This document shows, piece by piece, positions 1 through 27,110 of a stretch of DNA of 64,000 nt. Location of the stretch: positions 1 to 64,000 of the forward strand of contig NZ_FXUF01000003.1 in NCBI RefSeq assembly GCF_900182905.1, given 5' to 3'. Under the pieces are notes generated by a model, which ran no database searches, was not told the DNA's origin, and saw only the letters and a list, made by a program, of their open reading frames with translations. The DNA comes from Anoxynatronum buryatiense. Its GTDB lineage: Bacteria; Bacillota; Clostridia; Peptostreptococcales; Tindalliaceae. A program made the translations under genes and the position numbers. The stretch's first letter is position 1. Every line of letters begins with the position of its first letter.

Positions 1-148
1 AAAAAGAATAAAAATTTGACAAAAAAAGTAGCCGCAAGGCTTACTTTCAAAGGATCTTATGGATTCAACTTTTCGGTTTTGCTGTCAAACTCACGAGTGG
101 CTGTTTGCAGGTAAATTGAAGCGTATGTGCTTTTGTCGGGAAGCGAAA

Positions 149-24578: not shown

Positions 24579-24610
24579 TGACTTAATAATATGCTGACAG
24601 AGGTGATTTG

Positions 24611-25138
24611 ATGGATAAGCAATTGGACGGTGTCTTATTTACTAAAGAAGAAATTCATGAAAAAGTACGGGAGTTGGCCCAGAAGATTGAAACAGATTAT
24701 AAAGATGCAAATGAACTTGTACTGATTGGTGTTTTGAAAGGTGCCAATATTTTCCTGGGTGATTTGATGCGGGAAATCAAAAGACCGCTGAAAATTGATT
24801 TCATGGCAGTGAGCAGCTACGGGCATTCTACAGAGAGTTCTGGAGTCGTGAGAATACTAAAAGACCTGGATATGGAAATTGAAGACAAACATGTCATTAT
24901 TGTAGAGGATATTGTGGACACAGGCCTGACGCTGAAATATCTTACAGATAACCTTAAAAGAAGAAACGCGGCTTCTCTAAAAATATGTACATTACTGGAC
25001 AAACCAAGCAGGCGGAAATGTGATTTGACCGTAGACTATGTTGGGTATGAAATTCCGGATCGATTTATTGTAGGATATGGAATCGATTACGCAGAAAACT
25101 TCAGAAATCTCCCCTATATTGCAACTGTGGCAGATTAA
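24611..25138 (+). CDS. hpt: Hypoxanthine phosphoribosyltransferase
   Basis: Purine salvage enzyme that joins hypoxanthine or guanine to PRPP. The 175-residue protein has the PRPP-binding motif VIIVEDIVDTGLTL (near residue 96), the LVLIGVLKGANIFLGDL loop and the C-terminal FIVGYGIDYAENFRNLPYI typical of HGPRTs (split at Asp). ATG 24611 is used; a TTG directly before it is in frame. AGAGGTGA is the ribosome site. It is 32 bp after the adenosyltransferase gene and ends before a weak terminator. In many Firmicutes it lies next to tilS and ftsH, which are absent here. Confidence 0.95.
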   Translation: MDKQLDGVLFTKEEIHEKVRELAQKIETDYKDANELVLIGVLKGANIFLGDLMREIKRPLKIDFMAVSSYGHSTESSGVVRILKDLDMEIEDKHVIIVEDIVDTGLTLKYLTDNLKRRNAASLKICTLLDKPSRRKCDLTVDYVGYEIPDRFIVGYGIDYAENFRNLPYIATVAD

Positions 25139-25474: not shown

Positions 25475-25503
25475 TTGATTTCATGCACGCATTACTCTAT
25501 AAT
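25475..25503 (+). promoter_or_regulatory. Sigma-A promoter for pduL
   Basis: TTGATT (25475-25480), 17-bp spacer, perfect TATAAT (25498-25503), 57 bp before the pduL start. Confidence 0.7.
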
Positions 25504-25514
25504 ATAAGAAGAAC

Positions 25515-25532
25515 ATGTTAACGCTTTAACCA
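25515..25532 (+). promoter_or_regulatory. Rex-like operator just downstream of the pduL promoter
   Basis: ATGTTAACGCTTTAACCA matches 12 of the 14 defined positions of the clostridial Rex motif TTGTTAA-N4-TTAACAA. It begins about 12 bp after the -10 hexamer, so a bound repressor would block transcription start or elongation. Rex releases DNA when the NADH/NAD ratio is high. Confidence 0.55.
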
Positions 25533-25559
25533 ATGCAAGAAAATTAAGGAGGCTGTCAA

Positions 25560-26144
25560 ATGAGTCAAAATAGGATTCCGATCGCGTTATCGAACCGCCA
25601 TCTTCACATAAGCAGAGAGCACCTGAACAAGCTTTTTGGAGAAAACTATGAGTTGACCAAGCTGAAAGATTTGAAACAACCCGGACAGTACGCGGCTGAA
25701 GAAAAAGTTGACCTGATCGGACCAAAGGGTACCATCAAAGGAGTGCGCGTACTGGGGCCGGTACGCAATAAGACACAGGTGGAGATTTCATTTGCAGATA
25801 GCTTTGTGTTGGGCGTGAAACCACCGGTTCGAGATTCGGGTGATTTAAAGGATAGCGCAGGTGTGACCATTGTTGGTCCTCAGGGAGAAGTAGTCCTGGA
25901 TGAGGGGGTCATTGCCGCCGCTCGTCATATTCACATGACGCCAGATGAAGCGATGGTTTGGGGCTTGAAAGACAAAGATGTTGTCAATGTTCGTACTGGA
26001 GGCCAGCGCAGCGTTGTTTTTGAAAATGTGTTGGTGCGGGTGAATGCTGAATATGCGCTTGAAATGCACGTTGACCTTGATGAAGGAAATGGCGCAGGTG
26101 TTAAGAACAACGATGAAGTAGAACTGATTTTAGAACAACAATAA
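25560..26144 (+). CDS. pduL: Phosphate propanoyltransferase / phosphotransacylase, PduL type
   Basis: Interconverts acyl-CoA and acyl phosphate, and replaces Pta in many anaerobes. The 194-residue protein has two PduL beta-barrel domains with the metal-binding motifs SNRHLHIS (residues 11-18) and ARHIHMTPDEA (near 120), plus LEMHVDLDEGN near the end giving the third zinc-ligand histidine. It lacks the N-terminal encapsulation extension of microcompartment PduL, so it is most likely the cytosolic enzyme of acetate or propionate metabolism. AAGGAGG precedes ATG 25560. A Rex-like operator lies in its leader. Confidence 0.93.
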   Translation: MSQNRIPIALSNRHLHISREHLNKLFGENYELTKLKDLKQPGQYAAEEKVDLIGPKGTIKGVRVLGPVRNKTQVEISFADSFVLGVKPPVRDSGDLKDSAGVTIVGPQGEVVLDEGVIAAARHIHMTPDEAMVWGLKDKDVVNVRTGGQRSVVFENVLVRVNAEYALEMHVDLDEGNGAGVKNNDEVELILEQQ

Positions 26145-26303: not shown

Positions 26304-27110
26304 ATGGACAGGATTGCGTTTACCATTTTTGGAATAGAAGTTGCCTGGTACGGGATGTTGATTGCGACGGGGATGTTGCTTGGTGTTTTACTGGCGGTGA
26401 GAAGAACAAAGGCAATCGGTGTACAGGAAGATATCATGTATGATATTGCCCTTTGGGCGATACCGGCAGGTGTCATTGGTGCGAGAATCTATTACGTTAT
26501 CTTTAACTGGGCATATTATTCTCAGGATTTGATACGGGTTCTACAGTTTCGTCAAGGCGGCTTGGCTATTCATGGCGGGATCATTGCAGGGTTTGTGACG
26601 GGATACTTTCTTTGTCTTAAGCATGGGGTAAGCTTTCTGGCCATGGCTGATGTTGCTGCTCCCAGCATGATTTTAGGTCAGGCAATTGGCCGCTGGGGCA
26701 ATTATTTTAACCAGGAAGCGTATGGCAGACCGACAGAACTGCCCTGGGCAATCATCATTGATGGTGTGGGAGTGCATCCCACTTTTCTATATGAATCAAT
26801 CTGGAATTTTTTGGTGATGGGCTGGCTGCTTTTCTACACAGATAAAAAGAAAGTGGATGGCGAGGTATTTTTGCATTATCTGATTTTATATTCTGTCGGA
26901 CGATTCTTTATTGAAGGTTTGCGCACAGATAGCCTGATGATTGGTCCCCTGCGCACAGCACAGGTTGTTTCGCTGCTTATGATCGTTGTCGGTCTTGTGG
27001 GAGTCAAGTGGCTCCGACACCAAAAGAAAAACAAACACGGTAACTCGGAGAGTTTGAACGAAAACATGATGAGTGTCAATGACGAACATCAGCAACACAA
27101 AGACAAATAA
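26304..27110 (+). CDS. lgt: Prolipoprotein diacylglyceryl transferase
   Basis: Membrane enzyme that transfers diacylglycerol from phosphatidylglycerol to the lipobox cysteine of prolipoproteins. The 268-residue protein has about seven membrane spans; the signature GRWGNYFNQEAYG (about residues 131-143) contains the essential arginine and asparagine, and HPTFLYES and the YSVGRFFIEGLRTDSL segment follow. AGGAGTG precedes ATG 26304. It is alone here, flanked by terminators; its pathway partner lspA lies at 55.6 kb. Confidence 0.95.
   Translation: MDRIAFTIFGIEVAWYGMLIATGMLLGVLLAVRRTKAIGVQEDIMYDIALWAIPAGVIGARIYYVIFNWAYYSQDLIRVLQFRQGGLAIHGGIIAGFVTGYFLCLKHGVSFLAMADVAAPSMILGQAIGRWGNYFNQEAYGRPTELPWAIIIDGVGVHPTFLYESIWNFLVMGWLLFYTDKKKVDGEVFLHYLILYSVGRFFIEGLRTDSLMIGPLRTAQVVSLLMIVVGLVGVKWLRHQKKNKHGNSESLNENMMSVNDEHQQHKDK

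Follow-up and report, generated by a model that had tools for sequence, protein, structure and literature searches.

The 18-base palindrome ATGTTAACGCTTTAACCA in the leader of pduL from the anaerobe Anoxynatronum buryatiense is, at a probability of roughly 0.73, an operator at which Rex, a sensor of NADH, would bind the DNA and repress the gene. The box lies in the window, a stretch of 64,000 nucleotides from one contig, and the features around it are collected in Table 1. The pduL product scored 275.1 bits with the NCBIfam model NF011652, for which the cut-off is 209, and is the single match of its kind in its own genome. The two promoter hexamers are separated by a spacer of 17 bases and together score 10 of 12 in the promoter scan. 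ATGTTAACGCTTTAACCA begins 11 bases past the -10 hexamer and ends upstream of the ribosome-binding site, as the preliminary description had placed it. Given that it follows the -10 hexamer so closely, the box occupies the place of a repressor.

Table 1. Features of the pduL locus and related elements. Positions are those of the window unless a contig is named.
Feature	Position	Strand	Basis
-35 hexamer TTGATT, pduL promoter	25475-25480	+	promoter scan; same in 6/6 family leaders
-10 hexamer TATAAT, pduL promoter	25498-25503	+	promoter scan; same in 6/6 family leaders
Predicted Rex-type operator ATGTTAACGCTTTAACCA	25515-25532	+	consensus match; Rex-like box in 6/6 family leaders
Ribosome-binding site AAGGAGG	25546-25552	+	read from sequence
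pduL, phosphate propanoyltransferase (PduL-type phosphotransacylase), 194 aa, ATG at 25560	25560-26144	+	NF011652
Hypoxanthine phosphoribosyltransferase, neighbour of pduL	24608-25138
lgt, neighbour of pduL on the other side	26304-27110
Possible second, weaker Rex-like site ATGTTAAATAAATAACAA	25361-25378	+	consensus match
Glycine reductase GrdA gene (L206)	C4:184628-185068
pduL leaders outside the family with TGTATACA: L022, L024, L030, L033, L039, L041, L042, L045, L053, L055, L057, L058, L069, L106, L109, L114, L121, L126

Two forms of the Rex operator were used for matching, TTGTGAANNNNTTCACAA and TTGTTAANNNNTTAACAA, the latter being the Clostridiaceae Rex motif that serves as seed in PMC9600882. 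The agreement with the clostridial motif at 12 of 14 positions claimed beforehand was reproduced with TTGTTAANNNNTTAACAA, against which two mismatches were counted, at position 1 (A for T) and position 17 (C for A). A match as good to TTGTKAANNNNTTMACAA arose in ∼1.2% of dinucleotide shuffles of the pduL leader; the figure was 0.1% with a matrix built from 11 other sites of the same genome, which had themselves been selected through this consensus and through their redox annotation. Across this genome (4.16 Mb, 47 contigs), 38 places carried the pattern with at most two mismatches, compared with 21 for the reversed pattern. About half of these places could therefore be noise, and a lone site proves little. 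Thus, the pduL box was accepted because it is conserved in relatives and not on the strength of a single-genome match. The weaker site ATGTTAAATAAATAACAA precedes the -35 hexamer of pduL by ∼96 bases; it has no counterpart in the scanned pduL leader of the congener, and is perhaps a chance match.

A search of 60 genomes, that of A. buryatiense included, returned 44 with a PduL match. Six of these belong to the family, namely A. buryatiense itself, its congener G002 and four members of a second genus (G003 to G006); a further family genome (G001), 75% complete, gave no PduL match. The promoter TTGATT-17-TATAAT was identical in all six pduL leaders, and each also carried a Rex-like box 3 to 25 bases after the -10 hexamer. 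Compared with TTGTKAAN4TTMACAA, the congener box TTGTTAAACCATTAACTA agrees at 13 of 14 positions, GTGTGAATAGTTTATCAA (shared by G003 and G004) at 12, ATGTGAAACATTTATCAA in G005 at 12 and CTGTTAAAAATTTATCCA in G006 at 11. The boxes of the second genus are degenerate, with a TTATCAA or TTATCCA arm. The leaders of G003 and G004 contain an additional TATAAT, which precedes the box by 15 bases. In G006, extra sequence between the box and the ribosome site places the box 113 bases before the start codon, yet it is still four bases from the -10 hexamer. Over the family as a whole the arms are kept, and spacers, flanks and distances vary.

Shuffle probabilities for the four distinct relatives were 0.0018, 0.012, 0.0055 and 0.037, the last for G006. 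With the A. buryatiense site left out and G003 dropped as a near copy of G004, these were combined by the method of Fisher to 5.9e-6 with the merged literature consensus. The corresponding values were 1.2e-7 and 5.7e-8 with matrices of 11 and 19 sites, respectively, which comprise other intergenic sites of the A. buryatiense genome found with the consensus. Given that the family leaders share ancestry, the combined values do not count independent events. Beyond the family, 90 distinct pduL leaders were scanned, namely those with at least 170 bases upstream of a start codon found where it had been assigned, repeats removed. Boxes matching at 12 or more of 14 positions numbered 2, compared with 1.05 expected from shuffles and none for the reversed pattern; at 11 or more the count was 13, with 9.03 expected and 10 reversed. 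The comparison with relatives proposed in the preliminary description was thus positive in all six family genomes with pduL and negative outside them, and the lack of Rex-box enrichment among outside leaders marks the pduL operator as a family trait.

A rex gene is present in the genome, a point on which the preliminary description had asked for confirmation. A single match to PF06971 was obtained, and the corresponding protein of 212 residues scored 336.7 bits with the equivalog model NF003990 (cut-off 233). The six further family genomes that were searched each have a Rex of 84–87% identity, and a second, distant Rex (36%) is present in G005. Evidence for autoregulation was not obtained, in that no box of at least 12 of 14 precedes rex in A. 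buryatiense, where the best has 10; when seven family genomes were scanned, G001 gave the highest score (12 of 14), the rest having 10 or 11. Near rex in G003 to G005 there is a site of the GTGTGAAATGATTAACAA type, which falls inside coding sequence and was set aside.

Of the 38 places in the A. buryatiense genome, 37 were examined (one on contig C24 was left out), and 21 of these are intergenic by a simple longest-ORF script. Six sites are found 32–94 bases upstream of FMN_bind genes, whereas a crude Poisson calculation based on an assumed intergenic size predicts ∼0.1; FMN_bind gave 23 matches in this genome, counted as 19 genes, plus one more. The loci concerned are L006, L134, L137, L140, L142 and L148, and three of the genes are joined to FAD_binding_2. 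Such an arrangement suggests a redox regulon of flavin reductases. Several of the FMN/FAD reductases associated with Rex-like sites show, by eye, lipoprotein-like leaders. A FAD_binding_2 protein and a cytochrome c552 have sites 98 and 247 bases upstream, respectively, and further sites stand before a Nitrate_red_del (TorD-like) gene and a [FeFe]-hydrogenase-like gene. Others have no obvious redox tie, and stand before LacI-type regulators, an aminotransferase, a fumarase/aspartase-like lyase, the ATPase gene1 and an unmatched lipoprotein-like protein.

A wider pattern, DTGTKAANNNNTTMWCMA, shaped partly on the pduL boxes, gave 44 strand hits in the six family genomes compared with 9 for the control; in G002 there was no genome-wide excess (2 strand hits, 3 for the control). 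The hits represent 39 distinct places, and 12 of 34 examined together fall inside ORFs. In the relatives, such sites precede an iron-containing alcohol dehydrogenase, a radical-SAM protein that is HydE-like by reading, and, in three genomes, a molybdopterin/NuoG-type protein for which the family scan was made in one. FMN_bind proteins are again represented (one match is marginal, and another site falls within a short opposite ORF), as is a Nitrate_red_del protein. Sites were also observed before sodium:alanine symporter, CBS, CorC_HlyC and Cache proteins. The genes L169, L178, L197 and L198 were named by their likeness to family-scanned neighbours. Among the classical targets of Rex are genes for alcohol dehydrogenase and hydrogenase. 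Rex sites of HydG and a hydrogenase have been tested in Caldicellulosiruptor bescii (PMC6391272).

Many of these site-bearing genes serve anaerobic respiration, which would be typical of FNR-like control too. The half-sites of the CRP/FNR family, TGTKA-N6-TMACA, overlap those of Rex, and the A. buryatiense genome has nine HTH_Crp_2 matches, eight of them over cut-off. Nevertheless, it is unlikely that a regulator of this family binds the box and controls pduL. A7 and T12, which are seen in Rex boxes but are not required by TGTKA-N6-TMACA, are present in all five distinct pduL boxes, an argument biased toward Rex because it was the Rex consensus that located these boxes. A looser CRP-like pattern occurred at 19 places compared with 13 for its control, a smaller excess than that of the partly pduL-shaped Rex form given above. 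In addition, CRP/FNR proteins usually activate from upstream, whereas a box downstream of the promoter suits a repressor. Taken together, the pattern counts and the A7/T12 pair favour Rex over CRP/FNR, although not decisively.

The modest genome-wide excess over the reversed pattern, together with the absence of conservation beyond the family, would also suit a chance match in an AT-rich leader that was kept by common descent and has no function. Such an origin is improbable, given that the arms were kept while the spacer, the flanks and the distance to the -10 hexamer changed, with G006 accommodating extra sequence before its start codon, and given combined probabilities of 6e-6 to 6e-8, albeit from relatives that are not independent. 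A cre site for CcpA, whose carbon control of pta is known in bacilli, has very little probability at this position. The A. buryatiense box does contain a central CG and agrees at 9 of 11 positions with the cre consensus TGWAANCGNTNWCA, and G005 gives the same score in a different register. None of the five relatives has this CG in its box, however (spacers ACCA, TAGT, ACAT and AAAT), while the outer arms are kept, and the cre reading was rejected. An RNA hairpin acting in the pduL leader in place of a DNA operator is scarcely credible, since, for all that the box is an inverted repeat within the presumed transcript, five leader pieces fold near their shuffles (z of 0.49, -1.05, 0.18, -0.21 and 0.78) and the arms of the second genus no longer pair fully by eye.

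The significance of a Rex operator at this gene depends on what PduL does in the cell. No protein of the A. buryatiense genome exceeded the cut-off of the Pta model TIGR00651 (311.2 bits), and three PTA_PTB proteins scored 49–61 bits with it. All three score best with a phosphate butyryltransferase model, and one of them passes the threshold of that model. Two score above the cut-off of NF006045 (bifunctional enoyl-CoA hydratase/phosphate acetyltransferase), so that some acetyl activity is possible and they may share the work of PduL. Given that no Pta is found over cut-off, PduL is probably, although not certainly, the principal enzyme linking acetyl-CoA with acetyl phosphate. The ackA gene lies on the same contig, ∼55 kb from pduL, and has no Rex-like site among the places with at most two mismatches. 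Acetyl phosphate is also the product of the glycine reductase route, and the GrdA gene of this genome contains one in-frame TGA, which probably encodes selenocysteine.

The proposed mechanism can be described as follows. A Rex dimer, either free or bound to NAD+, would occupy the box immediately after the -10 hexamer, where transcription presumably starts (near position 25510), and would block initiation or escape of RNA polymerase. A rise in NADH/NAD+ would cause Rex to take up NADH and release the DNA, and pduL would then be transcribed; we infer the direction of this response, as well as its benefit. With PduL as the probable main enzyme, such a switch would tie the step between acetyl-CoA and acetyl phosphate to the redox state. 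At high NADH, more PduL might convert acetyl phosphate to acetyl-CoA for reductive pathways that consume NADH; conversely, PduL might clear the acetyl-CoA made by oxidations.

The pduL promoter extends further than the putative Rex operator. In a set of 93 distinct leaders from outside the family, in which leaders with a misplaced start codon were kept, TTGA[TC][TA]-16..18-TATAAT occurs in 38. The exact form TTGATT-17-TATAAT was also observed in 8 of 24 other pduL leaders from the genome search. Within the same set of 93, the palindrome TGTATACA is present in 18 leaders at no more than 160 bases from the start codon, compared with 0.19 expected from shuffles (Table 1). It often takes the form TGTATA-N3-TATACA or TTGTATACAA and often lies near the -10 hexamer. 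This palindrome is absent from the pduL leaders of the five family relatives, and none was seen by eye in that of A. buryatiense. It is probably the operator of another regulator, perhaps a GntR-like one. A wider scheme can be put forward tentatively, at somewhat less than even odds. The pduL promoter would be preserved almost unchanged across many genomes, both within the order and outside it, and its operator would have been swapped, so that it serves Rex in this family but, in other families, a regulator that recognises the TGTATACA palindromes. Rex of this family would then be a common switch for PduL and the FMN/FAD reductases, joining acetyl-phosphate flux to respiratory electron disposal.

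Operators of this kind are already known, and the candidate resembles clostridial Rex operators in being an 18-base palindrome with 12 of 14 matching positions, situated between promoter and start codon in a genome that contains rex. It differs from them in its target, pduL, and in the degenerate right arm of the second genus. Control by Rex of Pta and AckA has been predicted for Caldicellulosiruptor in an analysis of 14 genomes, in which most core Rex sites overlap or follow promoters (PMC8579813); Pta is listed as Csac_2041/Athe_1494 in PMC3561251. The resemblance to the present case is that Rex sites stand before the acetate-forming step, at or downstream of the promoter. The targets in Caldicellulosiruptor are named as Pta and AckA, whereas the target here is pduL, which stands apart from ackA. 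Given this precedent, the novelty resides in the gene pduL and not in the idea of Rex-controlled acetate formation. Stand-alone PduL is likewise found in Moorella humiferrea, where pta was not found and PduL was proposed to supply transacetylase activity (PMC5920165); in that organism pduL is near an acetate kinase gene, and the passage concerned makes no mention of Rex.

The view of the preliminary description that PduL would be a less documented Rex target agrees with the open literature, in which no paper was found on Rex control of pduL or on Rex together with phosphate propanoyltransferase. Higher pduL expression is described for a Streptococcus nox mutant, in a passage that makes no Rex-pduL link (PMC4780693), and “Rex” in the relevant text of PMC4784909 is part of an instrument name. 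As a Rex target, pduL thus appears to be new or at least seldom described.

If the Rex reading is correct, the NADH/NAD+ ratio would directly set the amount of PduL in bacteria that rely on this enzyme in place of Pta, and in this family the Rex regulon would extend to flavin-based reductases that are probably located outside the cytoplasm. In addition, a promoter that is conserved while its operators can be exchanged would provide a compact case for the study of regulator change at a core metabolic gene.
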